This document shows, piece by piece, positions 17,446 to 40,175 of a stretch of DNA of 64,000 nt; position 1 is the first letter of the stretch, and each line of letters begins with the position of its first letter. The DNA lies in the NCBI GenBank assembly GCA_026129095.1, contig JAHCIT010000002.1, positions 248,001-312,000 on the forward strand, given 5' to 3'. The position numbers and the translations under genes were made by a program. The stretch comes from Deltaproteobacteria bacterium (GTDB taxonomy: Bacteria > JAGRBM01 > JAHCIT01). The notes beneath the pieces are model-generated. The model worked only from the letters and a program-made list of their open reading frames with translations. It had not been told where the DNA came from and did not search any database.

Positions 17446-19179
17446 TTGAAAACCCATCCGATCGTGCTGGCGCTTTGCCTGTCTTTCGCCCTCGCCCTCT
17501 CCACGGCCGCCACCGGCTGCAAGACGACCCGGGGAACCCGGCCCGCGGAAGAAGCAGGGGCGGCAGCCGGGGCGCAGCCTTCGCTTCCGGCGGTCGCCAC
17601 CGAAGTCTCCGCCGAAGGAGAACCGGTGAGCGGCGACTGGCTGGTGAGAAACCTCGGAAGCAACCCGCCCACGCTGAACCCCATCCTGTCGAACGACACG
17701 TCATCGGGCGCGGTGCTCGCCTTCCTGTTCGAGTCGCTGGTGGAGCGCGACCTGAAGACCCTGGACTACAAGCCGCTGCTCGCCGAGAGCTGGACCGTGG
17801 GCGAGGACCAGAGGACGTTCACCTTCAGGATCCGGCAGGGGGTGAAGTTCCACGACGGCACCCCCATGACGATCGAGGACGTGGTTTTTTCCTACGAGCG
17901 GATGCTGGATCCCGAAGTGGATGCCGCCGAGAAGCGGTCCTACTTCTCGCAGCTCGAACACATCCGGCAAACGGGCCCCGACACCATCGAGTGCAAGTAC
18001 AAGGAAGTGTATTTCCTTGCGCTCGCCATCTGCGGCTCGGTGGAGATCATCCCCAGGCACTACTACGGCGGAGCAAAGGGCAAGGCGTTCAACACCCAGC
18101 CCGCCAACGAAAAGCCGGTCGGCACCGGCCCCCTCCGGTTCGTCGAGTGGAAGCGCGGCGAAACGCTGACGCTGGCACGGTTCGACGGCTACTGGGGGCC
18201 GAAGGACCAGCAGCTCAACGTGGAGCGGATGCTGTTCCGGTTCATCGTCGATCCCGAGGCTGAGTTCATCAACTTCACCAAGGGCGACCAGGACACACTC
18301 GCCGTCCGGCCGGAAAAATGGTTCCGCGAGGCGGCCGAGCCCGGTTTCGCGTCGAAGTTCCACCGTCTGGAGTTCGACTTCCCGGCCTATTTCTACATCG
18401 GCTGGAACATGCGAAAGCCGCAGTTCGCCGACGCGAATACCCGCGTCGCCCTGCATCACCTGATCGACCGCGACCTGATCGCCCGGCAGATCTACCGGGG
18501 GCTCGCCCGGCCGATCAACAGCATCGAGTTCGACAAGTCGCCCTACTGGAACCCCCATCTTGCGACACGGACCTACGACCCGCAGAAGGCGGCCGCCCTG
18601 CTCGCCCAGGCGGGCTGGACCGACAGCGACGGCGACGGAATCCTGGACCGGGACGGGCAGCGGCTGGAGTTCACGCTGCTGATCGTGCAGGGGAACCCCG
18701 AGGGCGAGCAGCTCGCCACCAACTTCCAGGACACGCTGAAGCGCGCCGGAATCAGGCTGAACATCGCCATGCTGGACTGGGCGAACCTGCTGAAGAAACT
18801 GGACAAGCGCGACTTCGACGCCGCCATGCTGGGCTGGGCCCTGTCGGTCGATCCTGACCCCTACCAGCTCTGGCACTCGTCCCAGGCCGGTATCGAGGGG
18901 AGCAGCAACTATCCCGGTTTTCGCAACCCCCGCGTGGACGAGCTGATCGAGATGAACCGGAGGGAACTGGACCGCGACCGGCGGATCCCCATCCTTCAGG
19001 AGATCCAGAAGATCATCTACGACGAGGCTCCGTATCTCTTCCTGTTCAGCCGGAGATCAACGCTGGCCGTCTCGAACCGGTTCCGGAACATCCGGTTCTA
19101 CACCCCCCGGCCCTGCATCGACTACCGGGAGTGGTTCGTCCCCCGGCAGCTCCAGAAATACACTCCCGTGTCGCCGTGA
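17446..19179 (+). CDS. ABC transporter substrate-binding lipoprotein, oligopeptide/dipeptide family
   Basis: 577 residues of the SBP_bac_5 (DppA/OppA) family. The start is TTG at 17446, set by GAGGTAAC ten bases before it. A lipobox AATGC (about residue 25) is followed by a linker and then the family signatures TLNPILSNDT, SWTVGEDQRTFTFRIRQGVKFHDGTP and DPDPYQLWHSSQ. It would capture peptides or related solutes in the periplasm for the permeases that follow. The aromatic WNMRKPQFADANTRVALHHLIDRD region (split) is standard for the family. Confidence 0.9.
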   Translation: MKTHPIVLALCLSFALALSTAATGCKTTRGTRPAEEAGAAAGAQPSLPAVATEVSAEGEPVSGDWLVRNLGSNPPTLNPILSNDTSSGAVLAFLFESLVERDLKTLDYKPLLAESWTVGEDQRTFTFRIRQGVKFHDGTPMTIEDVVFSYERMLDPEVDAAEKRSYFSQLEHIRQTGPDTIECKYKEVYFLALAICGSVEIIPRHYYGGAKGKAFNTQPANEKPVGTGPLRFVEWKRGETLTLARFDGYWGPKDQQLNVERMLFRFIVDPEAEFINFTKGDQDTLAVRPEKWFREAAEPGFASKFHRLEFDFPAYFYIGWNMRKPQFADANTRVALHHLIDRDLIARQIYRGLARPINSIEFDKSPYWNPHLATRTYDPQKAAALLAQAGWTDSDGDGILDRDGQRLEFTLLIVQGNPEGEQLATNFQDTLKRAGIRLNIAMLDWANLLKKLDKRDFDAAMLGWALSVDPDPYQLWHSSQAGIEGSSNYPGFRNPRVDELIEMNRRELDRDRRIPILQEIQKIIYDEAPYLFLFSRRSTLAVSNRFRNIRFYTPRPCIDYREWFVPRQLQKYTPVSP

Positions 19180-21286: not shown

Positions 21287-22003
21287 ATGGCTCCTCCCAA
21301 AAAGCGGCTCGGAGAAATCCTGATCGAGGCGAACGCCATCGACGAGATGCAGCTCAAGACCGCCCTCTCGGAACAGAAACGGTGGGGGGACCGGCTGGGC
21401 AACGTGCTGATCGCCCTCGGTTTCGTTGACGAGGGCACGATGGCGAAAGCCCTCTCCAGCCACCTCAAGATTCCGAGCGTGAACCTCACGAAGCAGGAAA
21501 TCCCGGCGGAGATCATCGCCATGCTGGATGCCGAGCGTGCCCGGAAGTTCGGCGTCATTCCGGTCATGTTCAAGAAGGAAGGCACCCGCAAGACGCTGTA
21601 CCTGGCCATGAGCGACCCGACGAACCTGCCCGCCCTCGACGAGATCGGGTTCGCCTCCGGCTGCCAGATCAAGCCGGTCGTCGCCGTCGATTCCCAGATC
21701 CAGGCCATGCTGGCCAAGCATTACGGCGGGGCGGATACCTTTGAGCGGAGCTACGGGGTGTCTACCGGGTTTCGCGGCGGCACCGACGCGGACGCCGGCT
21801 ACCGCCTGCAGCAGGAGATGATGGACCGGTCTCAGAACCTGGAGCCCGCCCCCGCCCGGCGGGAACCGCCCCCGGCTCCTTCCCCGGCGGGCGATGGCGG
21901 GCGGCCCAGGCCTTCCAAGGAGATGCTGGCCCTGATCCGGATCCTGTCGCGCAAGGGAATCATCACCAAGGAAGAGTTCATCGAGGAGTTCCGGAACCTC
22001 TGA
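21287..22003 (+). CDS. Stand-alone MshEN (c-di-GMP-binding type) protein with short C-terminal helical motif
   Basis: 238 residues. The first 145 form the GspE/PilB N-terminal (MshEN) domain. Two RLG motifs, RLGEILI at 7-13 and RLGNVLI at 36-42, are 29 residues apart, as in proven c-di-GMP-binding MshEN domains. A variable proline-rich linker follows. The last 25 residues ([17 protein letters not shown]) resemble a SHOCT-type helix pair. There is no ATPase domain, so it is not a pilus motor but a possible c-di-GMP-responsive adaptor. CAGGAG precedes the ATG, and an upstream hairpin may regulate it. It interrupts the peptide transporter operon. A pilin gene lies 1.1 kb further on, on the other strand. 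Confidence 0.85.
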
Positions 22004-23098: not shown

Positions 23099-23695
23099 TC
23101 AGCTGCAGTCCGCCGTCGTCGTGTCGTTGCACGAGGCAGCGCCAGCGGAATCCAGCGGGGCCGCGCCGTCAGCCAGGTCGTCCAGGCACATGGCCGGTTC
23201 GCGGCCGCCGGTGTTCGACACGTTGAAACGGTCGGATGCCGTGCCGTCCAGGTTCGGGTCACCGCACATGGCGGCATTGTATGCCGTGCCACGGGCAGGC
23301 GTCCCGCCGTCATCGGTGATGAGCAGGTTGATGTGCGGCTCGTAGGTCACCGCCGACAGCGCGCAGCCGCCACCACCCGGGTTGCACACGTTCGAAACGG
23401 TCGGGTTGACTGCATTCGTGTACAGCTTGATCGGGGAGGCGATACCGAAACCGGCGTTGTAGAGGTCCGTGTAGCCGGCAACGGAGGCCGCGGCAGTCGC
23501 CGCGTTGAAGTTCATGCCTTCCATCGTCGCCGCCTGGGCGCCAACGACGGCCTGCAGAATCACCTTGGCTTCAGAACGGCGCGAGTTCGCCATGAACTTG
23601 AGGAACCGCGGCACCGCGACTGCGGCCAGAATACCGATGATCGCCACGACGACCATCAGCTCAATGAGCGTAAAACCTTTGTTTTTCTTCTTCAT
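23099..23695 (-). CDS. pilA: Type IV pilin (PilA-like major or minor pilin)
   Basis: 198 residues. A class III (prepilin) leader of seven residues, MKKKNKG, is cleaved before F8 in GFTLIE by PilD. The mature protein begins FTLIELMVVVAIIGIL with the conserved Glu5 and a hydrophobic alpha1 helix. The C-terminal half is glycine- and asparagine-rich, with paired cysteines (CNPGGGGC, C-GD...C, C...C) that probably form disulfide loops, ending NDTTTADCS. Start ATG at 23695 has AAGGAAG upstream. A further 32 in-frame codons to 23791 overlap the sigma54 promoter and are excluded. It is expressed from the sigma54 promoter at 23783-23797 and ends at a strong terminator. Confidence 0.93.
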   Translation of the reverse strand: MKKKNKGFTLIELMVVVAIIGILAAVAVPRFLKFMANSRRSEAKVILQAVVGAQAATMEGMNFNAATAAASVAGYTDLYNAGFGIASPIKLYTNAVNPTVSNVCNPGGGGCALSAVTYEPHINLLITDDGGTPARGTAYNAAMCGDPNLDGTASDRFNVSNTGGREPAMCLDDLADGAAPLDSAGAASCNDTTTADCS

Positions 23696-23782
23696 GATGA
23701 GTTTCTTCCTTTTCCTTTTCTTCTTGCGTGACTTTGCCTGATGGCAGGCCAGCCAGCTTGTCTTGTTGCGCTGACAGTATGA

Positions 23783-23797
23783 GCAAGCCACATGCCA
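23783..23797 (-). promoter_or_regulatory. Sigma54 (-24/-12) promoter of pilA
   Basis: Minus strand TGGCATG-N4-TTGC matches the RpoN consensus TGGCACG-N4-TTGC at all but one base, with GG and GC ten bases apart. Predicted start of transcription is near 23772, giving a leader of about 77 bases before the pilA ATG. Pilin genes in many bacteria are RpoN- and PilR-dependent. Confidence 0.85.
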
Positions 23798-23994: not shown

Positions 23995-25380
23995 TCAGGC
24001 CTTCAGCCCATACTCCTTCACCTTCCGGTAGAGCGTCGCCTTGCCGATACCCAGGAGCGTCGCCGCCTCGGCGACGTTGCGGCCGCAAAGCTCCAGAGCC
24101 TTCTCGCAGGCCTGGCGTTCAAGCTGCTCCAGCGTCGGAAACCGCTCCCGCGTCCAGCCGGTTCCCGCCGCGCTGGCCGCCACCGCCGGAGCGGGGACGA
24201 CGCCGCCGGGCGCTGCCATCTGGCCGAACGGGGGCACGTCGGCGGCGGTGATGTATTCGCCCCGCGCCATGAGCGCCGACCGGTAGACGTGGTTTTCCAG
24301 TTCGCGCACGTTCCCCGGATAGTCGTGGCTCTGGAGCAGCTCGATCGCATCCGGCGAGATGCCCCGGATGAGACGGCCTTCCTCGCGGTTGAACTTGGCG
24401 AGGAAATGCCCGGCCAGCGGAACGATATCCTCCCGGCGCTCGCGCAGCGGGGGCACCCGGATCGGAAAGACGTTGAGCCGGTAAAAGAGATCCTCGCGGA
24501 ACGTCCCCTCGCGCACCATGTCGTCCAGCCGCCGGTGGGTGGCGGCCACCACGCGGACATCGGCCTTCACCGTCTCCGCTCCGCCCACGCGCTCGAAGGT
24601 CCGCTCCTGCAGGACCCGCAGGAGCTTGGCCTGGAGGTTCAGGTCCATCTCGCCGATTTCGTCCAGAAACAGCGTACCCCCGGCAGCCGCCTCCACCTTG
24701 CCGATGCGGCGGGCGATGGCGCCGGTGAAGGCGCCCTTTTCATGCCCGAACAGCTCGCTCTCGATCAGGTTTTCAGGGATCGCCGCGCAGTTGACCGCAA
24801 TGAACGGCCCCTTCGACCGCGCCGAGTTGAAATGGATCGCCTTCGCCAGCAGTTCCTTGCCCGTGCCGCTTTCGCCGGAGACCATCACCGTCACACTGGA
24901 TGACACGACACGCTCCAGCGCCTGGAATACCTCGTTCATCGCACGCGAGCGGCCGACGATGTTACGGAACGAGAACCGCTCGCCGGCGGCCGTCTCCAGC
25001 TGGTCCACGCGGGTTTCCAGGCGGCGGTGCGCGACGGCATTGCGGACCGCGGTCGCCAGCCGCTGGAGGTCGGTGGGCTTGAGGATGTAGTCGCGGGCCC
25101 CGTGGCGGAGCGCCTGCACCGCCGAATCGAGCGTCGATTGCGCCGTCACCATGATGACCGGAAGCTGCGGGTTGCGGCCGCGCAGCGACTGGAGGAGTTC
25201 CAGGCCGTCCATCTCGGGCATCTGCACGTCCGACACGACGCACTCGATCTCCGGCGAGTAGCGGGCGAGCCCCTCCACGCCGTTCGTCGCCTGCACGACA
25301 TCGTGCCCGTCGGCGCGAAGGTGCTCGGTCACGAGCCTGAGGAAATTGGGGTCGTCATCAACGACCAGCACGCGGGCCAA
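23995..25380 (-). CDS. Sigma54-dependent response regulator (PilR/NtrC-type)
   Basis: 461 residues. Receiver domain 1-120 has acidic DDD at 8-10, phospho-acceptor Asp51 and Lys101. The AAA+ domain has Walker A GESGTGKE (169-176), the sigma54-contact loop GAFTGA (216-221) intact, and Walker B GGTLFLDEIGEM. The Fis-type helix-turn-helix lies at about 425-461 (NVAEAATLLGIGKATLYRKV). It should activate RpoN promoters by ATP-driven remodelling. Its stop is 48 bp from the paired sites before pilA, on the same strand. This strongly suggests that it is the pilin activator, although its kinase is not adjacent. No PilS-like gene is seen here. Confidence 0.92.
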   Translation of the reverse strand: MARVLVVDDDPNFLRLVTEHLRADGHDVVQATNGVEGLARYSPEIECVVSDVQMPEMDGLELLQSLRGRNPQLPVIMVTAQSTLDSAVQALRHGARDYILKPTDLQRLATAVRNAVAHRRLETRVDQLETAAGERFSFRNIVGRSRAMNEVFQALERVVSSSVTVMVSGESGTGKELLAKAIHFNSARSKGPFIAVNCAAIPENLIESELFGHEKGAFTGAIARRIGKVEAAAGGTLFLDEIGEMDLNLQAKLLRVLQERTFERVGGAETVKADVRVVAATHRRLDDMVREGTFREDLFYRLNVFPIRVPPLRERREDIVPLAGHFLAKFNREEGRLIRGISPDAIELLQSHDYPGNVRELENHVYRSALMARGEYITAADVPPFGQMAAPGGVVPAPAVAASAAGTGWTRERFPTLEQLERQACEKALELCGRNVAEAATLLGIGKATLYRKVKEYGLKA

Positions 25381-25441: not shown

Positions 25442-25481
25442 ATTGAGAAGGGACTGTATCACATTGAGAAACATTCTCAAT
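25442..25481. promoter_or_regulatory. Cluster of ATTGAGAA half-sites
   Basis: ATTGAGAA occurs at 25442-25449 and 25463-25470 (21 bp apart) and inverted, TTCTCAAT, at 25474-25481. The last two form a perfect dyad with a 3-bp centre. A second dyad ACTGTATC/GATACAGT (25453-25460, 25498-25505) is interlaced. The cluster lies about 100-130 bp before the sigma54 promoter at 25578 and 60-100 bp before the regulator start on the other strand, so it could serve either. Confidence 0.6.
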
Positions 25482-25577
25482 ATGAAACTCATGAACGGAT
25501 ACAGTACGAAGTGCCTAAGGCCATAGAAAATGGCGTAATTTCAGCATGTTATCTGGAATACCCAGCCGTCATCCCGT

Positions 25578-25592
25578 TGGCACAACAACTGC
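25578..25592 (+). promoter_or_regulatory. Second sigma54 promoter, reading away from the regulator
   Basis: TGGCACA-N4-CTGC on the plus strand, one mismatch from the RpoN consensus, with exact GG-N10-GC spacing. Predicted transcription start is near 25603. The only thing downstream before the opposing gene is a 70-base segment ending in a strong hairpin. Confidence 0.65.
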
Positions 25593-25602
25593 TTTTCAGG
25601 AG

Positions 25603-25674
25603 GCTCAGAGCACTTCTCCTCCTCAAACATGGCCCCGGGCGTCTACTCCCCAGACGCCCGGGGCTCCTCTTTCC
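25603..25674 (+). ncRNA. Candidate sigma54-dependent small RNA with an anti-Shine-Dalgarno stretch
   Basis: Between the promoter at 25578-25592 and the end of the opposing gene at 25679 there is no plausible protein. The predicted transcript of about 70 bases has a single-stranded region TTCTCCTCCTC (25614-25624), complementary to ribosome binding sites, followed by a 13-bp hairpin (arms 25632-25644 and 25652-25664) with loop ACTCCCC and a TCCTCTTTCC tail. A 19-codon ATG frame at 25629 overlaps the hairpin and has no ribosome site at proper distance. RNAs with CUCCUCC loops are known in alphaproteobacteria (cuckoo-type RNAs). Homology is not claimed. Confidence 0.45.
25632..25674 (+). terminator. 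Strong hairpin terminator
   Basis: 13-bp perfect GC-rich stem (25632-25644 with 25652-25664), 7-base loop, then TCCTCTTTCC. It ends five bases before the stop of the opposing hydrolase gene and may also end transcription from that side, although the minus-strand tail is not T-rich. Confidence 0.7.
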
Positions 25675-25678
25675 GGTG

Positions 25679-26617
25679 CTATTTCTGAAGGTAGTGGGCG
25701 ATGCCCTTCGCGTTGATCTCGTGATCCAGTTCGAGACTGTCATTCTCCGGTGCACCGGCCGGCACGCCGCGGGCCGACAGTTCCCGGCCGACCTCGCGGC
25801 GGAGCCCGTCGCGGACCGGCTCCCAGCCGGGGCCCGCCGCTTTCGCAATCTCCACGAACCGGCCGATCCAGTCCCGGCTCCCGGCCAGTTCCTCCACCGT
25901 CCCCAGCGAGAAGTGGGTGAAATAAAGGCGCGGGAGCCCGAGCGATCCGATCCGCTCCATCGTGCGGACCAGTTCCGGCGGATCGAACTCCGAGGGCGAC
26001 GTGGTGGGCAGTGCCGGAACAAAACCGTAGTTGCGGAACCACGGATACCGGACTCCGGCGTTGTCGCCGGTAAAAACGCCCCGGGAAGCGGGATCGGTCA
26101 CGACAAAGTGGTGACGGGCGTGTCCGGCCATGTGAAGGCACCCAAACCGCCGCCCGGTGGAGAGCTCCACGTGGCCGCCATCCGGAATCTCCACGACCCG
26201 CTCCGCCGGGACCGGTACAATGGGCGCGAACTGCCGGTCGAAGCTATCGCCGTAGACCGCCCGCGCACCGGCCATGAGCCGCGAGGGATCAACGAGATGC
26301 CGCCCCCCGCGGGGATGCACCGCCAGCTTTGCGTTCGGGAGCCGTTCCAGCAGCCATCCGGTCCCGCCCGCATGGTCCAGGTGGATATGGGTGACGATGA
26401 CCCACTCGACCGCGGCGGCCGGTATCGCCAGCGTCTCCAGCGACTTCAGGATGCGCCAGGCAAGCGGCGCGGCGCCCGTTTCGATGACGGCGGCGGCCCG
26501 CGCATCGCCCACGATGTAGGCGCAGGTCCGCTCCGCCCTTCCGCCTTCGAGCAGGTCCACACAGTGAACGCCGGAGCCCAGATCCGCCGGCGGGACGAAC
26601 TCCCCGGTTCCGTTCAT
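25679..26617 (-). CDS. Metallo-beta-lactamase-fold hydrolase
   Basis: 312 residues. The metal site THIHLDHAG (H-x-H-x-D-H, about residues 77-85) is followed by the downstream His in HMAGHARHH and the Asp in FTGDNAG, all as in two-metal MBL hydrolases. The fold is used by glyoxalase II, lactonases and other thioester or ester hydrolases. The substrate is unknown. The start ATG at 26617 overlaps the stop of the upstream SDR gene (ATGA), so a GTG two codons earlier is less likely. The linkage to an SDR suggests the two act in one catabolic step pair. Confidence 0.88.
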   Translation of the reverse strand: MNGTGEFVPPADLGSGVHCVDLLEGGRAERTCAYIVGDARAAAVIETGAAPLAWRILKSLETLAIPAAAVEWVIVTHIHLDHAGGTGWLLERLPNAKLAVHPRGGRHLVDPSRLMAGARAVYGDSFDRQFAPIVPVPAERVVEIPDGGHVELSTGRRFGCLHMAGHARHHFVVTDPASRGVFTGDNAGVRYPWFRNYGFVPALPTTSPSEFDPPELVRTMERIGSLGLPRLYFTHFSLGTVEELAGSRDWIGRFVEIAKAAGPGWEPVRDGLRREVGRELSARGVPAGAPENDSLELDHEINAKGIAHYLQK

Positions 26618-27327
26618 GGCCACATCTCCACCGTCGTCCCCGCCAGCGACGCCCCGGCATCGGAGCAGGCGAAGACGGCCACGCGGGCGACCTCGGCCGG
26701 GTCAAGGGCCGTCTCCGCGTCCGGCAGCGTCTCCCGCAGCATGTCGGTGCGGACCGAGCCAAGCTGGATGGCGACCACCCGGACGCCGTGCGGCTTGCCT
26801 TCGACATGGGCCACGTCGGTCAGGCCCTGGAGGCCGTATTTGGAGGCCGAATAGGCCGCGAAACCGGGGAACTTCGGGAGCCCCAGCTTGGCCGACACGC
26901 TCGACACGTTGATGATGACGCCGCCTTTCTGCGCCGTCATCAGCTTCATCGCTTCCGAGCAGATCTCAAAGGGTGCGAGCAGGTTCACCTCCAGCACTCT
27001 CAGAAACTGATCGCGGGTCAGCTCGCCCAGCGACCGGACGATGTTGATACCGGCATTATTGACTACAATGTCAATTCGCCCGAAGCGGGCGGCCGCCTGC
27101 CGGACGAGCCCCGCGCCCGTTCCGGGCGTTTCGAGCAGGCCCGGAAGCGCGATCACTTCGGCGCCGGCGGCCTTCAGCTCCGCCGCGACCGGGGCGGCCG
27201 ATCCGGCGGAGCGGGAATGGACGGCGAGACGGGCCCCCTGCCGGGCCAGCTCCAGCGCCACGGCGCGGCCGATGCCGCGCGAGGCGCCGGTCACCAGGGC
27301 CACTTTTCCCTCCAGCGATCCCTGCAT
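26614..27327 (-). CDS. Short-chain dehydrogenase/reductase
   Basis: 237 residues, classical SDR. Cofactor motif TGASRGIG (about 14-21), NNAGIN, Ser in NVSSVSAK and catalytic YSASK are all intact. It resembles 3-oxoacyl-ACP reductases (FabG-like), but so do many hydroxy-dehydrogenases. It probably uses NADP, judging from the Arg and Ser after beta2 (HSRSAG). It overlaps the MBL gene by four bases and follows folE on the same strand by five, giving an operon queD-folE-SDR-MBL. Confidence 0.88.
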   Translation of the reverse strand: MQGSLEGKVALVTGASRGIGRAVALELARQGARLAVHSRSAGSAAPVAAELKAAGAEVIALPGLLETPGTGAGLVRQAAARFGRIDIVVNNAGINIVRSLGELTRDQFLRVLEVNLLAPFEICSEAMKLMTAQKGGVIINVSSVSAKLGLPKFPGFAAYSASKYGLQGLTDVAHVEGKPHGVRVVAIQLGSVRTDMLRETLPDAETALDPAEVARVAVFACSDAGASLAGTTVEMWP

Positions 27328-29626: not shown

Positions 29627-32600
29627 TCATGGCACCGTTCCGCCCACACCGGTGCGGTTCACGTAGATGTCGGAGTTGATCTCATCGTCGTCAGTGAAGC
29701 CCGGATCGGTGTTGAAGAGCGGATTCTCGTTGTAGCACTCGAAAGCGGCGTAAAGACCGTCATCGGAAATCGCCGCGCTCCAGCAGGAGGCGAAGTTGGC
29801 AGCATCCTCGTTCGGCTCGTTGCCGTTGTCGGAGTTGGTCGACACCGCCACCGTCGTGTTTGCCGTGATGTTCCGCACGAACACGTTCCAGCCGGTGCTG
29901 ACGGTCTGCGTGGGATCGGCCAGGTTCGTTGCCGAGGAGGTAAACACCACGACCGTCCCGTCGTGGGAAAGGTCGAAGGCACGCGAATACATGTCGCTGT
30001 CGCTGTCGCCTTCGACACCGGCGCGCTGACCAACCAGGACGAGCGAGGTCGCCGCGGCCACGGTGCGTGCATAGTAGTGGCTGCGCCCTGCGGTCGTCGC
30101 CGGGGACGGCACCACGCTGACCGTTTGCTTCTCGTATCCGAATACCAGCCGGAGGCCATTGCCGCTGATCCGCACCTGCGACGTGTAGCTATCGAGCTGA
30201 AGACCCGTACGGCTCACGCTGACGCGAGTCGTGGTGCCCGCGGACCGGTTCCGGACGAAAGCGTCCGTCTGGTTGTTGGTGTCTCCGGACACCAGATCGT
30301 CCTTGTCAGATACCCAGGCGACGATGTTCCCGTTGTCGGAGACCGACGCGCCGTAGCAGTTGTCGCCTTCATCCGAAACCTGTCCGTTCGACCGGCGGCT
30401 CACCAGCGACGTGGTTCCCAGGACCATGTCGTACAGGAAGATGTCGGAAGCGCCGTTGATATCGGTCACCGACGGATCCAGGTCGTCGGCGTACGATTCA
30501 TACACAATGAACCGGCCGCTGCCGCTGATGTAAGGCGCATAGGAATCGCCATTCGCCTCCGCGCTCGCATCAATCGCCGTGATGCAGGTGGTCTCCGCCA
30601 GCAGCAGGTCGCGCACATAGATGTGTGTGTAGTTGCCGTCGTCGCAGCCCAGATCGAGGTCGGTCGCATCCGACTGGAATACCACATAGCGCCCGTCGGC
30701 CGAGATCCGCGGGTTGTAGCTGTCACTGTCGGGCTCATCCGAATCGACGCTGATGCTGACCAGTTGCGGCACCATGCCGTCGTCGCTCTCATCGAAGATG
30801 CCGTCGTTGTCCACATCGCGGTCCACGAAGTAGATCTGCGAGAAGCTCATGGACGTCGGCACGTCGGACTGCAGGTCATCGGAAGTCGAGCTGAACACGA
30901 CGAACCGCCCGTTGCCGCTGAGAGCGGGATTCCGGCTGTCGCCGTTATTTGGCTCATCCGGCAGGACGCCCTGCTTGGAGATCCGGTTGGCGGGAAGTTC
31001 CGCCGGCACAGTGGCGAGCGATTCCACCGTTTCGGCAACCGGCGTCACGCCGCCCAGCGAGGTCGTCGCGGTGAGGGTGAACGTGTCGGCGTCGTCGTAC
31101 CTGAGATCGTCCCAGATGGCGTAGCCGCCGGCGATGCTCTTCGTCAGCGACGGGTTGCTGGCCGAGCTGAGGGTGCCCGCGCCGCCGGTTTCGGCGAGCG
31201 TGACCGTGCCGGAGGCGTTCGTCACCAGGTTCTGGTGCGCGTCACGGACCTCGACGGCGACGAACTGCATCGTCGCGTTTTGGGAGGTCAGGACGAACGG
31301 CGACTTCAGGAACGCGAGCGAGGCGGCCGGGCCGGCCTCCACGTCGAATGCCGCGCTGGTGTTGGTATAGGCGGAGCTGCCGTCCTCGGCGAACAGGATG
31401 TAGCCGGTGCCGGTCTTGTCCAGGCTGATGCCCGTGAAGGTGGCCAGGCCCGCCACCACCGTCCGCGTGGTGATGCCCGACAGGGTGGAACCGCCGGGGT
31501 TGTTGTCGATCGTGACCGTGATGGTCGTCGCGTTGTCGGTCGTGATGCGGTTGCTGTAGAGGTCAATCAACTCGACCGTCACGGCCGGCGTGATGGCCAG
31601 GCCCGCCTGCGCGTTCGACGGCTCCTGGACGAACCGGATGCCATCGAGCGCCGCCGGAGCGATATTGAAGCCGCCGGATGTAGCGCCGGTGAGTCCCGCC
31701 GACGAGGCGGTCAGCGTGTAGCCCGTACCGGTCTTGTCGAGCGAAACGGCGCCGAACTCGGCGTTGCCCGCCACGCCGCTCGTGACGGTCGCGGGGTTGG
31801 TTCCGGTCGTCAGCACCGAGCCGCCGGGGTTGTTGCCGATGGCCAGCGTGACTGACGTGGCGTTGTCGTTGGTCCTGATGTTGCCCAACGCGTCGCGAAC
31901 GGAGACTTCCGGGGCCACGTCGTCACCGGCAATGGCCGACGACGGCTGGACCGTGAAGGCGAGGCTCGACGCCGCGCCGGGACCGACCGTGATGCTGCTG
32001 GTGTCGGCGAAGTCGCCCGTGTTGGTGTTCGTCCCGCGCAGCACGTAGTCGGCGCCGCTGGTCGTGCTCAGCCGCACGCTGAAGCTGGCCGTTCCGGCGC
32101 CGCTGGTCGTCGAGTTCAGCAGCGCGCCCAGAAGCGCCGTCGAGGGCGCCGCCTGGACGAACTGGCCGCCCACGGGGCCGGAGTCGATGGCGAGCGAGAT
32201 GGGCGTGCCGGCCGCGAGGACCGGATTGCTGAACTGGTCACGCACCGTGACCGTGACCGTCTGCGACTGGTCGGTGGTCGGCGCGAGGCTCACCGGATCG
32301 GTGATGGTCACCTGGTCCGGAGCGCCCGCGCTGATGTTGAAGCTGCCGCTCTCGTCCATCGTGAGACCCGCGGCGGTCGCCCGCACCCGGTAGTTGTTGC
32401 CGGGCACGGACACCTGTAGCTGGTCGGCCGTGTCGGTGAGCAGCAGGACGCCATTCACGGTGGTCACGCCGCTGCCGGTAAGGCCGTCATAGGTGCCGCA
32501 GCCGATGAAGCAGGCCGCACCCGTCACGTCAGTAAGCGGCGGGACGAAACGGTACAGGCCGATCGTGATCTCGGTGGTGGAGCCCGCGCCGCCGTTGCCC

Positions 32601-35600
32601 GTTACCAGGTTGTCGAACAGGTCCAGCACCCGGACCTCGATCACCTGCTGGTCGTCCACCGTGGCCGAGGAGGGCTCGATGCTGACGAGCAGCCGGTCCG
32701 CGTCGCCGTGGCGGAGCTCGAACGGGTCGCTGAGCACACCGGTGAGCGACGGGGCGGTGGCGAACAGCCGGTAGCCCGCCGCCGGACGGTTGATGACGAC
32801 GCCGTTCACGCCGGGTGTCCAGGTGGCCACGCCCGCGGCGGTCGCCACCGGGAGGCTGCCCGGGGCCTGAAGCGTGCCGGAGCCGGGGTTGACGCCGATG
32901 GAGAGCGTCACGGAGGTCGCGGCGCCTGTCGCCACGTTGTCGGATGAATCGAGCACGGCGACTTCCACCATGAGGCCGTTGGCATCGATGTTCGTCGGGC
33001 CGGCGGCCGGCTGCACCTGGAAGGCGAGCTTCGACGGCGCGCCGTGGGCGATGTCAAAGGCGCCGCTGATCGCGTTCAGCGCCGGACCGTTGGTGGTCGC
33101 GTCCAGCGTGTAGCCCGTGTCGGCCCGGATCACCCGGACGTTCGGCCAGGTGGCGACGCCGGCGACCGGAGCCACGGTTCCAGCGCCGGTGAGGACCGCG
33201 GGGCCGTGTCCGTTGTCATTGTCGAACGAGAGCGTCACCTGCGTGATGGAGGCCTGGGTCGTGGCGATGTTGCCGTGAACGTCGAGGATATGCACCACGA
33301 CGGTCTGGGTCTCGTCGGCGGTCTTGTTCACCGGTCCCGTCACGAACGCGAGCGAATCGGGATCGCCGGGGGTGATCGTGAAGGAGCTGGTGTCCACCGC
33401 CGGGTTCGGCAGGACGCCCCGCGTGGCGCGAAGCGTGTAGGTGCCGGTCTTCGTGAACTGGGTCGTGAAGGTGGCGATGCCGCTCACGGTCGGCTCGGTG
33501 AGCGGGCAGACGGCGGGGGTGCAGGCAGCGCCGACGGGTCCGGTCAGGATGTCGAGCTGGATATTGCTTCCGTTGTCGCCAGTGAGCGTGTTGCCGAACA
33601 GGTCCTGCAGGGCGATCTCGACCGTCTGGTCGAGGTGCGCCTGGCGCGGGGAGATGGGCTGGGTCACGACGGCCAGCCGGTTCGCCGCCCCGGCGGCAAG
33701 GTCGAAGTCCGGCGTCACACCGCCAAGGAGCGGCAGCGCGCCGGCCGATGCGGTGAGCGAGTAGCCCACGCCCGCCCGGTTGATGTGCAGGTTCGAATAG
33801 GTGGCCACGCCAGCCACGGCAGCCTGCGCCGGTGTTACCGGCGTGCCCGCGGGGTTCACGAAGGAACCGGCGCCCGGATTGGCGAAGAAGGCCAGCGTCA
33901 CCACCTGGGTGGAGCCCGCGCCGGTCGTCACCACGTTGTCGAACTGGTCCTCGATCTGGACGGAGACGGCCAGCGGGTCGCTGACGAGGCCGCTCGCCGG
34001 TGTCGTGGCGAACCGGATGTGATGGGCCGCGCCGTGCGTCAGGTTGAATGACGAGCTGAGCACCGAGCCCAGTGCGCCGATCACGCCGCCCGTCGCCGTC
34101 GCCCGAAGGGCGTAACCGTTACCCGGAAGGGTGAGCCGCGTGGAGATCGTCACGTTGCCCAGCGGGATGATGGTATTGAACGGGCAGGCCGTCGGATCGC
34201 AGGCCCCCGCGGGACTTCCGGGCTCGATCGAGAGCTCGATCTCCTCGGTCCCGAGGAACCCCTTGATGGTCGGGTTTCCATAGATATCGGCGATGGCGAC
34301 GGTGAGCGACTGGAGGCTGTCCACCGTACCGCCGAGCGTCTGGCCCGTGATGGCCAGCGAATCGGGGTCGGAGCCGGTGACGGTCACGCCCGCCTGGGTC
34401 GTCGGCACCAGGTTGCCGGAAGTAGCGACGAGCTGCACCGTTTCGGCCGTCTCATAGTAGAGATCGCAGAAGGTCGCCACGCCGCCCACGGCCGCGACTG
34501 TCGTCGTGCCGAACAGGGTGTCCGTCGCGCCGGTCGCAAGGCCCACCGTGATGTTCCGGGCCGTCTCGATCAGGTTGCCATGGGTGTCCTGGACCTCGAC
34601 CTCGACACATGGCGCCCACTGGACGCCCGCCTCGACCGTTCCGGGCGGGGTCTGCGAGTAGGAGAGCCGTTCGGGGATGTCCGCACGCACCCGGATGGGG
34701 TGGCCGGAGATGATCGCCAGCGGCGGGTTCGAGGTGACGTTGATCGTGTAGTTGCCGGCCACCAGCGCGTAGATGCGGTCAGAAGTGTCCGGGCTGAAGG
34801 TGGCGACGCCGAGCACCGACGTCATGGTGAGGTCCGCCGGGTCGTCCACCAGGATCGCGCCGCCCACGGGAGTGCTCGCCTCGACCACGGTGATATCCCG
34901 GTCGGCCGAGCCGTCATCAATCGTGTTTTCAAACACGTCCGTGATGCGGACCGTGAAGGGATCCCAGGTGACGCCGGCCGTCTGGTTGGCGGCGGGCGGT
35001 GTTCCGAAAACGAGCTTGTTCGGCAGGCCGACGCTGATCGTGAACGGATCGCTGTTCACCGACTGGATGCCGACCGTCGCCGGAGTGGCCCTTAGCTGGT
35101 AGCCCACGCCCGGCCGGTTGATCTGGACGTTATTGAAGGTGGCGATGCCGGTGGCGGGGTTGGTCGCCGCCGTTCCGCAGCCGCCCACGCAGGTTCCGCC
35201 GGCGGGGTTGATCCCGATGGAGAGCGTGATGTTCTCGATCGTGCCGGTGATCGGGTTGTTGAACTGGTCGCGGAGCTGGATCTCGACGGTCTGGGTCTCG
35301 TCGGTCCGGACGTTGCCGGGCTGGGTGGTGAACACGATGCTGTTCAGTCCGCCCGCGCCCACGTTGAAGCTGGCGCTGGTGACGCTGCGGAACGGGGCCA
35401 GCCCCGATGTCGCGGTCATCTGGTAGCCGATGCTGACGTACTTGAGGATGACCGGATTGAAGATCGCCTGGCCGCCGACCATCGAGACGAACGCGCTGCC
35501 GCCGCCGCCCGGCGTGCAGCCGCTGTCGCAGGCGTCGGGCTGGCCCGACGGGTTGAGCGAAAGAACCAGCTCGATCTGCGCCGCCGAGTACGGCCCCGTC

Positions 35601-38600
35601 GTCACCAGGTTGTCGAACTGGTCGCGGGACTGGACGATGACCGTCTGCGAGGCACCGGCCGCGATGCTGACCGGCGGCTGGGTGAGGAACAGGTGGTCCT
35701 CGGCTCCGTGCGTCTTGGTGAAGGTGTCGCTGAGCGTGTTCAGCGGGCCCTGGATCACCTGGAACCGGTATCCGCCGCCGGCCCGGTCGATCTGGATGTT
35801 GCTGAAGGTGGCGAAACCGCCCACCACGCTGGCCGGGGCCGGAACACCGGGAATGAAGCTGCCGCCGGCCGGATTGGCGCCGAAGCCGATGGAAACGGTC
35901 GGCTGCACCGGATCGTCAACCGTGTTGCCGTACTGGTCGAGCACCTGGACGATCACGGTGCTGAAATCATCCACCGTTGACGTCACCGGCATCGGTGTCG
36001 AAAAGACGAGCTGGCTGGCGGTGGCGTTGTCGATCGCCACCACATGACCGGCCGACGAAATGAGTCCGGGTGCCGTGGCCGTGACCGTGATGGTTTCCTG
36101 CGTCGTGTAGGTGAGCGACGGGAACACGGCTACGCCACCCGCCACCGTGATGACGTTCCCGATGAAGCCCCCATGGGCGGGCGTGGGGTTGCTGCCCGTG
36201 ACAGTGACGACCGTCTGGTTGTTGGTGGTCGTCAGGTTGTCGAACTGGTCGAGCACCACGGCCGTCACGTTGCCGCCGCCGTTGCCGAGCCATACCTGCC
36301 CGGCGATCTGGTTGGGTTCCGGGTGTGTCGCGCTGGCGGCCGCATTCTGGAAGCGGACCTGCGAGGGCGCGCCGTGCGTGAGCGTGAAGGCGGTCGTGAA
36401 CGCCGCGGGGAAGGCCGATGTCGCCTGCATCGTGTAGCCGACACCGGTCCGGTCGATCTGGAAGGTGAACTCCGACACGCCGGCGACCGCCGTCACCACC
36501 GTGCAGCCGGTGCCCGGCGGGTTCGGGGGCAGAGGCGACTGGCAGGTTCCCGGCACCGGGGCGCCGGCGTTGTTGCCGATCGCCAGCGTGATGTTGGTGC
36601 TGAAGTCGGACGTGACGATGTTGTTGTAGGCGTCGCGCACGGCGGCCTTCACCGTCTGCACGGTGCTGACCGGCGCGTTCACCGGCTGCTGGATGAACGC
36701 GACATGGTTGGCCGCGGCCGCGCTGACAGCGATGCTGACCGGCACTGCCGGGGCGAGCGCGCCGGAGGTGGCCGTGAGAAGAAGCGTCCCGGCCTTGGTG
36801 TAGGAGATGCCCGAGAAGGTCGCCACGCCGAGGACGGCGTTCACCGTCGTCGAGCCGCCGAGCACCGGATCGCCCGTGGCGGGATTGTACTGCTCGATGG
36901 TGACGGCACGCGAGGTCGGGATCACGTTGCCGAAGGCGTCCTGCACCTCGACCTCGACCGACACGCCGCCGCCCACGTCCCAGACGTCACCGGCGCCGAC
37001 CGACGGCGGATAGACGGTGATGGCCAGCCGGTCCATGATGTCCGGACGGACGTCGATATCAGTGGTCGCGGGGGCCGAGGCCGCCGAGGCGGTGAGATCG
37101 GACGAAAGCTGCAGGCCGTTGCAGTTGCCGGCCGTGCAGATGGCCCTCATCGTCAGGATTTCGGCGGTATTATAGAAGATATCGGTGAAGGTCGCGGTGC
37201 CGTTGTCGATGGGGCTCACCACCTGGACCTGCTGCCCGTTGCCGCAGATGCCGCCCGCCGCATCGGGGGGCGGACAGTTGCCGCCGTTGCCCGATGGCGA
37301 ATTGACGAGATCCAGGGTAACCGTGCCGGTGGCCGTGGCGCCCGTAACGGGATTGCCGAACTCGTCGACGATCCGGACAGTGAACAGGTCCCATTCGAGA
37401 CCGGCCTGCTGCTGGGCCTTCGGGGCGGTGCCGTACTTGAGATGGTGCGGCGCGCCGACGGTGATGTTGAACGCCGAGCTCGCCGCGGAGGCGATACCCG
37501 GCTGCGCGGTCGTGGCCCGGACGGTGTATCCGGTACCCGGCATGCTCACGCGGAAGGCTTCGTTGGTACCGGACGAGAACGTCACGATGCCGGCGGCAGC
37601 CGGAACCGCGACGCAGTTGTGGCAGAACGCTCCGGTGGGGTTGTTCTCCAGGGCGAGCGTCACACTGGCCGTGGCGGCCGCGCCGGTCGTCACCACGTTG
37701 CTGTAGGCGTCAATGATCGCCAGCACCGGCTGCTGCCAGGTGTCGGTCGTGCCACCAGCGGGCTGGGCCGCGCCGGGAACGACGGCGGGCGAGAAGGTCA
37801 TGGCGGCCGCGGCTCCGTGGCTGATCGTGATGGGCGCCGAAACGGCGGAGGCCGCGCCCGACAGCAGGGCCGCCGAAGAGATGATGGTGTAGCCGTTTCC
37901 GATCCGGTTCACCTGGAGGCCGGATACACCGGCGAAGTTCGCCACGCCGGCCGATGCGGGCTGGGGCGCATAGCCCACCAGCGAGCCCGGCACCGGGGTG
38001 CCGGCGTTCACGCCGATGGCGAGGTTCACGAGAACGGTCGAATCGGTCCCGGTGGTCACGCGGTTGGCGAACTGGTCGCGGATCTCCACCTGCACGGTCT
38101 GGCGGTCATCGGCCGTCGCGTTGGCGGGTGCCGTCAGGTAGGCGATCTGGGTCGCCGCGCCGTGGGTGATGTTGAAACTGCTGCTGGGGGCCGACGTCAG
38201 CACGCCGTTGCTGGCGCTGAGCTGGACGCCGGTGCAAACCTTGTCGATCTGGACCGGGAAGGTGGAAACGCCGAGCGTGGGCACGACCGGGGCGCCGCCG
38301 CTCACGAGCGACGCGCCGCAGGGGGCTCCGCCGAAGAAACTGAGGGTGATGGGGGCGGCCGACGTGGTGGCCGTGTTCCCCAGGGCGTCACGCACGGTCA
38401 CGCCCACGAGCTGCTGGGTGTCGGCGTTCACGGTCACCGGCTGCGTCGTGAAGACGAGCGAGAACGGCGTCCCGTGGTTCACCGTCACGTTGGCGAGCGG
38501 AGTCGGCGTAATTGCCCCGCCGGCAACGCCCTGCACGGTGATCGGCGCGGCGTCCGACACGTTGTAGGTGATGGCCGGGAACTGGGCGATGCCGCCCGCC

Positions 38601-39877
38601 GCCGTCACGGTGTTGCTCACGAAGGCCGGGTCGCCGGGGAAGCCCTGCCGCTCGATGGTGACCGAAGTGGTGTTGTTCGAGGTGGTAAGGTTCCCGAAGG
38701 CGTCCAGGATGAACACCGCCACCGAGGGACCAGCCGCGGGCGTCCAGGGCTGACCGGCCGTCTGCGCCGCCTGGGGCGTGCGGTTCACGCCGCCAACGGA
38801 GGCGCCGTCAAACACGAGGCTCTCGGGCGCACCGTGGGCGATGTTGTAGGCGTTGCTGTTCACCGTCGTCGTGGCGAAGGTCGCGGCCGGAAGGTCCACC
38901 GAGGCCTGGAGGATGTAGCCGTTGCCGGGCCGGTTCATCTGCACGTTGGCGAACGTGGCCACGCCGCCGGCCGCGCCTACCGCCGCGCAGCCGCTGACGC
39001 AGGAACCGACCGGACTGGAGTCGCCGGTCGAGAACAGGTTGAGGTTCACGTTGCGCGTCGAGTCTGTGCCGGTGTTGACAAGGTTGCCGAACCGGTCCTG
39101 GATCTGGACGACGACCGTCTGGAGCGAATCGACGGTCCCGTTCTGCGGCTGCTGGGTAACCGCCAGCGCCAGATCGCTGCTGATGTCGGGCAGCACGGTC
39201 ACCGGGATGGAGAAGGTCGTCACGAGGTCGGCCGATTCGGCCTTGATCACGATGTCCTCGGCGATGTTGTAGACAATCGCCCGGAAGGTCGCGACACCAA
39301 GGATGGCGTCCACGGCAGTCTCGCCGATCAGCGCGCCGCTGCCGGTGAAGATTGAGATCACCACCTCCTGCGAATCGTTGATCCGGTTGCCGTAGGCGTC
39401 CTGGATCTCGACGGTGAAGTCGGGCCATTCGGCGCCGGCCGTCACCGGGGTCAGCGGCTCCACGCCGAAGCCGAGCTTCGCCGGAACGTTCGGGATGACG
39501 TCAATCGCCACGTCCAGCAGCGGGCGCACGCCCGGGCCGGTGAAATCCACGATGACCGGCTCGGCCGTCTGGTACACCACGTTGTTGAACAGGGCCGCGC
39601 CGCCGACGGTGTTGACCGTCGTCGTGCCGCGGAGCGCATCGGTGCCCGACTTCAGCGAAATGGTGATCGGCACGCCGTTGGCCGTGACCGGTTCACCGCG
39701 CACGTCCACGATTTTCACGGTGAACGGCACCATCGGTACGCCAGCCGTCTGCTCCCTCAAGGGCGCGGGGCTGAACACCAGCACATGTTCGGGGTTCCCC
39801 GAACATCCGGTAGTCGCCACGAGGGCGGTAAAAAGCATTATTCCGGTAACAGACTTGAATATGGACGCCAGTCGCAT
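29627..39877 (-). CDS. Giant surface lipoprotein: 26 Ig-like repeats plus C-terminal TolB-like propeller
   Basis: 3416 residues from ATG at 39877, which is preceded by AGGGGAGTG. The signal peptide has lipobox ATTGC. From about residue 30 to 2960 there are 26 tandem repeats of some 113 residues. Each has a D-x-[FYAL]-x-N-x-[VIL]-T turn, a V-T-L-[SA] strand, then G-V-A-T-F and a G-x-G-Y-x-L-x-A strand, as in bacterial Ig-like or invasin-type adhesin modules. Ten or so repeats carry close cysteine pairs. Residues 2964-3416 form a PD40/TolB-like beta-propeller (repeated NPxLSGNGRFVVFSS and PRISADGRYVVFQS blades). It is likely exported and surface-anchored for adhesion or ligand binding, but this is inferred from architecture. 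Confidence 0.85.
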   Translation of the reverse strand: MRLASIFKSVTGIMLFTALVATTGCSGNPEHVLVFSPAPLREQTAGVPMVPFTVKIVDVRGEPVTANGVPITISLKSGTDALRGTTTVNTVGGAALFNNVVYQTAEPVIVDFTGPGVRPLLDVAIDVIPNVPAKLGFGVEPLTPVTAGAEWPDFTVEIQDAYGNRINDSQEVVISIFTGSGALIGETAVDAILGVATFRAIVYNIAEDIVIKAESADLVTTFSIPVTVLPDISSDLALAVTQQPQNGTVDSLQTVVVQIQDRFGNLVNTGTDSTRNVNLNLFSTGDSSPVGSCVSGCAAVGAAGGVATFANVQMNRPGNGYILQASVDLPAATFATTTVNSNAYNIAHGAPESLVFDGASVGGVNRTPQAAQTAGQPWTPAAGPSVAVFILDAFGNLTTSNNTTSVTIERQGFPGDPAFVSNTVTAAGGIAQFPAITYNVSDAAPITVQGVAGGAITPTPLANVTVNHGTPFSLVFTTQPVTVNADTQQLVGVTVRDALGNTATTSAAPITLSFFGGAPCGASLVSGGAPVVPTLGVSTFPVQIDKVCTGVQLSASNGVLTSAPSSSFNITHGAATQIAYLTAPANATADDRQTVQVEIRDQFANRVTTGTDSTVLVNLAIGVNAGTPVPGSLVGYAPQPASAGVANFAGVSGLQVNRIGNGYTIISSAALLSGAASAVSAPITISHGAAAAMTFSPAVVPGAAQPAGGTTDTWQQPVLAIIDAYSNVVTTGAAATASVTLALENNPTGAFCHNCVAVPAAAGIVTFSSGTNEAFRVSMPGTGYTVRATTAQPGIASAASSAFNITVGAPHHLKYGTAPKAQQQAGLEWDLFTVRIVDEFGNPVTGATATGTVTLDLVNSPSGNGGNCPPPDAAGGICGNGQQVQVVSPIDNGTATFTDIFYNTAEILTMRAICTAGNCNGLQLSSDLTASAASAPATTDIDVRPDIMDRLAITVYPPSVGAGDVWDVGGGVSVEVEVQDAFGNVIPTSRAVTIEQYNPATGDPVLGGSTTVNAVLGVATFSGISYTKAGTLLLTATSGALAPAVPVSIAVSAAAANHVAFIQQPVNAPVSTVQTVKAAVRDAYNNIVTSDFSTNITLAIGNNAGAPVPGTCQSPLPPNPPGTGCTVVTAVAGVSEFTFQIDRTGVGYTMQATSAFPAAFTTAFTLTHGAPSQVRFQNAAASATHPEPNQIAGQVWLGNGGGNVTAVVLDQFDNLTTTNNQTVVTVTGSNPTPAHGGFIGNVITVAGGVAVFPSLTYTTQETITVTATAPGLISSAGHVVAIDNATASQLVFSTPMPVTSTVDDFSTVIVQVLDQYGNTVDDPVQPTVSIGFGANPAGGSFIPGVPAPASVVGGFATFSNIQIDRAGGGYRFQVIQGPLNTLSDTFTKTHGAEDHLFLTQPPVSIAAGASQTVIVQSRDQFDNLVTTGPYSAAQIELVLSLNPSGQPDACDSGCTPGGGGSAFVSMVGGQAIFNPVILKYVSIGYQMTATSGLAPFRSVTSASFNVGAGGLNSIVFTTQPGNVRTDETQTVEIQLRDQFNNPITGTIENITLSIGINPAGGTCVGGCGTAATNPATGIATFNNVQINRPGVGYQLRATPATVGIQSVNSDPFTISVGLPNKLVFGTPPAANQTAGVTWDPFTVRITDVFENTIDDGSADRDITVVEASTPVGGAILVDDPADLTMTSVLGVATFSPDTSDRIYALVAGNYTINVTSNPPLAIISGHPIRVRADIPERLSYSQTPPGTVEAGVQWAPCVEVEVQDTHGNLIETARNITVGLATGATDTLFGTTTVAAVGGVATFCDLYYETAETVQLVATSGNLVPTTQAGVTVTGSDPDSLAITGQTLGGTVDSLQSLTVAIADIYGNPTIKGFLGTEEIELSIEPGSPAGACDPTACPFNTIIPLGNVTISTRLTLPGNGYALRATATGGVIGALGSVLSSSFNLTHGAAHHIRFATTPASGLVSDPLAVSVQIEDQFDNVVTTGAGSTQVVTLAFFANPGAGSFVNPAGTPVTPAQAAVAGVATYSNLHINRAGVGYSLTASAGALPLLGGVTPDFDLAAGAANRLAVVTQPISPRQAHLDQTVEIALQDLFGNTLTGDNGSNIQLDILTGPVGAACTPAVCPLTEPTVSGIATFTTQFTKTGTYTLRATRGVLPNPAVDTSSFTITPGDPDSLAFVTGPVNKTADETQTVVVHILDVHGNIATTQASITQVTLSFDNDNGHGPAVLTGAGTVAPVAGVATWPNVRVIRADTGYTLDATTNGPALNAISGAFDIAHGAPSKLAFQVQPAAGPTNIDANGLMVEVAVLDSSDNVATGAATSVTLSIGVNPGSGTLQAPGSLPVATAAGVATWTPGVNGVVINRPAAGYRLFATAPSLTGVLSDPFELRHGDADRLLVSIEPSSATVDDQQVIEVRVLDLFDNLVTGNGGAGSTTEITIGLYRFVPPLTDVTGAACFIGCGTYDGLTGSGVTTVNGVLLLTDTADQLQVSVPGNNYRVRATAAGLTMDESGSFNISAGAPDQVTITDPVSLAPTTDQSQTVTVTVRDQFSNPVLAAGTPISLAIDSGPVGGQFVQAAPSTALLGALLNSTTSGAGTASFSVRLSTTSGADYVLRGTNTNTGDFADTSSITVGPGAASSLAFTVQPSSAIAGDDVAPEVSVRDALGNIRTNDNATSVTLAIGNNPGGSVLTTGTNPATVTSGVAGNAEFGAVSLDKTGTGYTLTASSAGLTGATSGGFNIAPAALDGIRFVQEPSNAQAGLAITPAVTVELIDLYSNRITTDNATTITVTIDNNPGGSTLSGITTRTVVAGLATFTGISLDKTGTGYILFAEDGSSAYTNTSAAFDVEAGPAASLAFLKSPFVLTSQNATMQFVAVEVRDAHQNLVTNASGTVTLAETGGAGTLSSASNPSLTKSIAGGYAIWDDLRYDDADTFTLTATTSLGGVTPVAETVESLATVPAELPANRISKQGVLPDEPNNGDSRNPALSGNGRFVVFSSTSDDLQSDVPTSMSFSQIYFVDRDVDNDGIFDESDDGMVPQLVSISVDSDEPDSDSYNPRISADGRYVVFQSDATDLDLGCDDGNYTHIYVRDLLLAETTCITAIDASAEANGDSYAPYISGSGRFIVYESYADDLDPSVTDINGASDIFLYDMVLGTTSLVSRRSNGQVSDEGDNCYGASVSDNGNIVAWVSDKDDLVSGDTNNQTDAFVRNRSAGTTTRVSVSRTGLQLDSYTSQVRISGNGLRLVFGYEKQTVSVVPSPATTAGRSHYYARTVAAATSLVLVGQRAGVEGDSDSDMYSRAFDLSHDGTVVVFTSSATNLADPTQTVSTGWNVFVRNITANTTVAVSTNSDNGNEPNEDAANFASCWSAAISDDGLYAAFECYNENPLFNTDPGFTDDDEINSDIYVNRTGVGGTVP

Positions 39878-39948
39878 CCCCACACTCCCCTGATTGTTCA
39901 AATTGGCAAAGAACCAATAGACCCTTAACGAAGGATTACGAGGCGCTA

Positions 39949-39977
39949 ATCCTATAGAAGCCAAAAGCTGCACGCAA
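39949..39977 (-). promoter_or_regulatory. Promoter candidate of the giant lipoprotein gene
   Basis: Minus strand TTGCGT (39977-39972), 17-bp spacer, TAGGAT (39954-39949), giving a leader of about 65 bases. The surrounding 298-bp gap (39878-40175) shows no gene and is more AT-rich than its neighbours. Confidence 0.45.
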
Positions 39978-40175
39978 TACCGGTCACGCACTTTTGTATG
40001 AAAAGCGACGTAAAGAACGCTGGCAGCACCATGCGACTGCCTGACTGCCGCCGACAACCATGGGCGGTGTTGCCACCAGGTGTCACGGATGGCAACGCCG
40101 GACGCATAATTCACATGTAATTTCAGCTAGTTATAAGCTGAAAGCACCGGCTTTTCCGGCTATCAGGACTGTATC

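Follow-up and report, generated by a model that had tools for sequence, protein, structure and literature searches.

Genes flanking the candidate RNA

The window analyzed here is a 64,000-nucleotide stretch from a deltaproteobacterial genome (G000). The segment of interest lies between a gene for a PilR-like response regulator and a convergent gene for a metallo-hydrolase. The features of this locus, with gene products assigned by Pfam, are as follows.

23099-23695, minus strand: pilA, type IV pilin, with synteny kept at locus L106 of the related genome G001
23782-23797, minus strand: RpoN promoter of pilA, TGGCATGTGGCTTGCT, with the counterpart TGGCACAGCGCTTGCT at L106 6634-6650 (minus strand)
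23995-25380, minus strand: pilR, coding for a PilR-like RpoN-activating response regulator (Response_reg, Sigma54_activat and HTH_8 domains), divergent from the predicted RNA
25463-25481, no strand assigned: near-perfect 19-bp palindrome, ATTGAGAA-aca-TTCTCAAT, a candidate enhancer or operator lying some 100 bp before the RpoN element of the RNA
25679-26623, minus strand: convergent metallo-hydrolase gene, with its stop codon at 25679-25681

Clear RpoN promoters precede pilA in both genomes. The gene adjoining the predicted RNA encodes an RpoN-activating response regulator, which is the neighbor expected for an sRNA linked to its activator. In both genomes pilR immediately precedes pilA, and no gene for a PilS-like kinase was seen adjoining. 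The window also carries a short protein gene (21287-22003, plus strand) whose product looks by eye like a PilB/GspE-type N-terminal domain that lacks the ATPase portion. Near the pilin locus there is an ORF of 3495 amino acids (29627-40114, minus strand) with many 'VRDAxGN...' repeats of bacterial Ig-like appearance and a C-terminal part that resembles a WD/TolB-type propeller.

The distance of the palindrome from the RpoN element fits an activator site, and its 14-base core (TTGAGAA-N3-TTCTCAA) has no second exact copy in the genome. The palindrome is absent near the pilA promoters and is not clearly kept in G001, which has just loosely similar TGAG/CTCA repeats. It also overlaps a sigma70-like promoter facing pilR (25453-25480, minus strand).

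A predicted RpoN-dependent transcript

The plus strand of the segment carries the following features.

25577-25593, plus strand: RpoN (-24/-12) element TTGGCACAACAACTGCT, found by pattern match
25604-25673, plus strand: predicted small RNA of about 70 nt, based on folding and accessibility
25614-25624, plus strand: anti-Shine-Dalgarno (anti-SD) stretch TTCTCCTCCTC, mostly unpaired by predicted accessibility
25632-25664, plus strand: perfect 13-bp GC hairpin, terminator-like, with the 7-nt loop ACTCCCC (25645-25651)
25665-25673, plus strand: weak U-rich tail, TCCTCTTTC

RpoN promoters require a spacing of 10 bp between the GG and GC dinucleotides, and this is the spacing in the element identified here. 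Seven of its nine scorable non-core positions agree with YTGGCACG-N4-TTGCW. A site of equal quality on the plus strand of this leader has a probability of P = 0.004 by shuffling, and of P ~0.005 when calculated from background density (19 sites scoring at least 7 on the two strands of 464 kb). Across the genome, matches with no more than one mismatch are not enriched (73 occurrences versus 144 for a reversed control), and therefore an RpoN match alone is no proof of a promoter.

Placing the start site 12 nt past the C of the -12 element suggests that transcription begins near 25604. The resulting transcript is predicted to consist of the hairpin and a mostly open leader, with a folding energy of -35.1 kcal/mol for positions 25604-25680 (z = -5.1). 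The hairpin (GCCCCGGGCGTCT / ACTCCCC / AGACGCCCGGGGC) begins 38 bases past the RpoN element. Only about seven perfect stems of at least 13 bp with a loop of at most 9 nt occur in 464 kb of this genome, and the sequence TCTCCTCCTC occurs twice. The predicted unpaired probability is 1.0 for the CCCC of the loop and 0.6-0.9 for the anti-SD stretch. The segment thus has the C-rich motifs typical of sRNAs with C-rich loops or anti-SD sequences, located in a short terminated noncoding stretch that follows a correctly spaced -24/-12 element.

The sequence after the hairpin, TCCTCTTTCC, is a weak U-tract. T occupies five of ten positions in the plus-strand tail versus four of ten in the minus-strand tail, and the hairpin by itself could serve the minus-strand gene because it is located 14 nt past the hydrolase stop codon. 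One explanation, then, is that the hairpin is merely a 3' or bidirectional terminator for the hydrolase operon and that the RpoN-like site and CTCCTCC arose by chance, as the unenriched promoter pattern would allow. The hairpin could also serve both strands. Taken by itself, the window segment makes a weak case for an sRNA, given unenriched promoter matches and a poor terminator tail.

The segment might instead encode a small protein, as there is an ATG frame of 19 codons (MAPGVYSPDARGSSFRCYF, 25629-25688). This frame has no SD sequence at a proper distance before it, is buried in the hairpin, extends past the terminator and has no corresponding frame in G001. We consider a coding function extremely improbable.

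In these respects the original prediction was accurate. It described a near-consensus plus-strand RpoN promoter, a 13-bp GC-rich hairpin 40 bases downstream (38 by our count), an anti-SD sequence with a C-rich loop, the absence of a convincing ORF and an opposing gene that ends right behind the segment, and each of these features was recovered.

A similar arrangement in a related genome

G001, which provides the decisive evidence for the sRNA reading, is the sole other genome of the phylum that we compared, and it belongs to the same order and a different family. Its best PilR match is 57% identical to the window protein and is likewise encoded upstream of pilA. Divergent from this pilR gene, and oriented as they are in the window, are the following features.

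L106 8416-8432, plus strand: RpoN-like site GCGGCACGGGATGTGCT, the counterpart of the window element
L106 8466, plus strand: anti-SD stretch CTCCTCCTTCC, which contains CTCCTCC
L106 8522-8552, plus strand: terminator with a 12-bp stem, the loop CTACCCC and a T-tract, TTTGGCCCGGTG-CTACCCC-CACCGGGCCAAA-TTTTTTTGT

The RpoN-like site is of moderate quality, with agreement at six of nine positions, and the cassette holds a further stem-loop with a C-rich loop in addition to the terminator. Shuffling of this leader, done after the features had been seen, gives P = 0.015 for the RpoN site and P = 0.06-0.09 for CTCCTCC. The terminator folds with z = -7.3, and the predicted RNA is about 115 nt long. 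The terminator is of textbook form with an unambiguous plus-strand T-tract, and its position just some 260 bp inside the divergent region implies a short transcript.

The two stems share no recognizable sequence, although both are long and perfect and carry a 7-nt loop ending in CCCC. They have been turned over so completely that a base-by-base alignment is impossible.

No homolog of the metallo-hydrolase was found in G001 at E <= 1e-20, yet the cassette there matches that of the window in position and orientation and has its clear plus-strand T-tract. Because the hydrolase gene was not found, the conserved unit appears to be pilA-pilR-RNA without the convergent gene, and we judge it unlikely that the hairpin is only a terminator for the hydrolase operon.

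Another possibility is that the element is no free sRNA but belongs to a plus-strand gene farther downstream, as its transcribed leader or as an attenuator. In G001 a plus-strand ORF with the appearance of a beta-barrel protein starts at or after L106 8596, just behind the terminator. In the window, however, the gene that follows runs on the other strand and there is nothing to attenuate, which makes this explanation very unlikely.

The agreement in position, orientation, promoter, anti-SD stretch, hairpin and C-rich loop would be hard to explain by chance, with the reservation that it comes from one relative and was scored post hoc. Loss of both the RpoN elements and the hairpin in relatives had been named as grounds for abandoning the original prediction, and in the one relative available both are present.

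Searches for comparable cassettes

The background consisted of 400 kb from the window's genome and 110 kb from G001; scans of the former covered 464 kb in total. A cassette was defined as an RpoN-like site (at least 6 of 9 positions) that has a strong hairpin and T-rich tail 25-170 nt downstream. Among 160 RpoN-like sites in the 464 kb and in the activator loci of both genomes, three distinct cassettes were found. Two are the pilR cassettes, the sole ones with an anti-SD stretch, and the third is a weak exception. The 110 kb of G001 yielded no cassettes from 36 RpoN-like sites, and no comparable long-stem cassette was seen at roughly 50 loci, drawn from many phyla, where other RpoN activators are encoded. 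A CCCC loop was present in 2 of 90 and in 1 of 27 hairpins resembling terminators, counts that include both pilR cassettes.

A DNA similarity search with the intergenic segment against 60 genomes returned only the self-match. The PilR search of genome contigs gave no close relative among the matches listed. A PilR profile run against 290 genomes found no protein closer than that of G001, and the retrieved loci included no pilA-linked ortholog accompanied by a similar cassette. In one genome, locus L117 carries two identical long hairpins (TCCCCCTCTCCGG-GAA-CCGGAGAGGGGGA, at 18880-18908 and 18989-19017) about 110 bp apart, which are possibly a dispersed repeat element.

Relationship to known RNAs

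No Rfam family matched in the window at the gathering cut-off. A relaxed scan of the segment peaked at 19.8 bits, where the cut-offs are 50 or higher, and Pxr was not listed. The sub-threshold matches were to ErsA (Pseudomon-1), sX13, alpha-r14 and CcsR1 for the window and to FsrA for G001. These matches probably reflect common C-rich terminator loops, and control terminators likewise yield weak matches at the relaxed threshold. Membership in alpha-r14, CcsR1, sX13, Pseudomon-1/ErsA or Pxr was rejected, all scores being below the gathering cut-off.

RpoN is present in both genomes, each of which is about 96% complete and has more than a dozen genes of the RpoN-activator type. Neither Hfq (PF17209) nor CsrA (PF02599) was matched in G000 or G001, and the positive controls performed as expected. 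The RNA was consequently not assigned to the Hfq-dependent trans-encoded sRNAs, nor to the CsrA-sequestering RNAs of the CsrB type. By the tests made, it would work like an sRNA with a C-rich loop under RpoN control, outside the Rfam families tested.

Qrr1 is an RpoN-dependent sRNA, and Qrr RNAs use Hfq. As we read it, the layout at the pilR locus is like those of luxO-qrr1 and nla19-pxr, and the putative seeds are like those of sX13 and RepG. In Vibrio, Qrr1 is encoded beside luxO, so that, as here, the sRNA gene adjoins that of an RpoN-activating response regulator with a palindrome between them (a candidate site in our case); a palindromic LuxO site has been described in the intergenic region shared by qrr1 and VC1021 (PMC10328515). 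Qrr1 differs in its use of Hfq, which was undetected here, and the present regulator is PilR-like and the seed C-rich.

The Pxr RNA of Myxococcus is a stem-loop sRNA of about 108 nt that adjoins the RpoN-dependent response regulator gene nla19 and apparently has an RpoN promoter (PMC5568312). Pxr is located downstream of nla19, whereas the window RNA is divergent from pilR, and the Rfam model for Pxr has no match here.

The sX13 RNA of Xanthomonas has CCCC loops, is independent of Hfq and acts on G-rich (GGGG) motifs near start codons (PMC3771888). It lowers many type IV pilus mRNAs, which rise upon its loss (PMC3771888). Its C-rich loops and lack of a need for Hfq are shared with the predicted window RNA. 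However, sX13 has three stem-loops, its model scores 19.6 against 50 bits, and the text consulted mentions no pilR linkage or RpoN promoter (PMC3771888).

NfeR1 (alpha-r14) of Sinorhizobium carries CCUCCUCCC anti-SD motifs, is Hfq-independent and has a feedback tie to an NtrC-type regulator (PMC10746234). It differs in not being driven by RpoN and in having three anti-SD hairpins, and its model scores 17.9 against 58.8 bits.

In Helicobacter pylori, RepG uses a C/U-rich terminator loop to target a G-repeat in the tlpB leader, and its gene adjoins that of an orphan response regulator (PMC8295292). RepG and the window RNA thus share a C-rich terminator loop and an adjoining response regulator; the target of RepG is the tlpB G-repeat, and the text consulted mentions no RpoN promoter. 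CJnc230 (FlmE) of Campylobacter belongs to the RpoN motility regulon and has a single-stranded anti-SD sequence between stem-loops (PMC11187230). It differs in being mainly processed from flgE mRNA, in addition to an RpoD promoter, without an RpoN promoter of its own. CbrB is the known activator of a further RpoN-dependent sRNA, CrcZ (PMC8657755).

Possible mechanism and targets

For a purely comparative case, the interpretation of the segment as an sRNA gene is well supported. It is quite probable that the RNA depends on RpoN, and nearly as probable that it is a small trans-acting regulator that is activated by RpoN and PilR and represses translation through C-rich anti-SD sequences. Adjacency somewhat favors PilR as the activator.

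In the proposed mechanism, an enhancer-binding protein would activate RpoN polymerase at the -24/-12 element; the likeliest candidate is the PilR-like protein encoded beside the RNA. The transcript, as suggested by its predicted structure and conserved architecture, would stop at the long GC hairpin, which would also display the C-rich 7-nt loop. We infer that the exposed UCUCCUCCUC and the CCCC loop might then base-pair to leaders that are G-rich or contain an SD sequence, preventing translation with no need for Hfq. In this way the PilR/RpoN regulon, which activates pilA, would also be able to repress at the post-transcriptional level.

Only 3-6% of the approximate leaders in the two genomes contain GGAGG, and an anti-SD RNA could therefore be selective. 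In a crude calculation, in which duplex energies were compared over 276 and 70 approximately placed translation starts, the leaders of pilA and pilR were average partners, and these genes are not favored as targets. No convincing enhancer motif common to the promoters of the RNA and pilA was found. Thus, of the original prediction, an RpoN-activated regulatory RNA divergent from the pilin activator gene is supported by the like architecture in G001 and by RpoN in both genomes, but the suggested link from pilus control to translation was not borne out by these comparisons. A pilus link is plausible but unproven, and the presence of pilus genes among the targets is possible but doubtful.

A broader proposal, which we regard as tentative and on balance somewhat unlikely, is that these RNAs represent an undescribed family of Hfq-independent sRNAs under PilR/RpoN control, from a phylum that has been little sampled. 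PilR would activate both the pilin gene and a divergently transcribed C-rich anti-SD RNA that represses translation from G-rich leaders, possibly of pilus assembly genes, in an incoherent feed-forward arrangement.

Significance

RpoN-driven sRNAs that adjoin the genes for their activators are already known from a few model groups, and no pilR-linked sRNA was found in the literature searched. A case absent from Rfam, associated with a PilR-like pilus regulator in a lineage with no detectable Hfq or CsrA, would extend this pattern of activator-linked RpoN sRNAs. The locus would likewise offer, if our interpretation holds, a compact system in which regulation by C-rich loops without Hfq could be tested.
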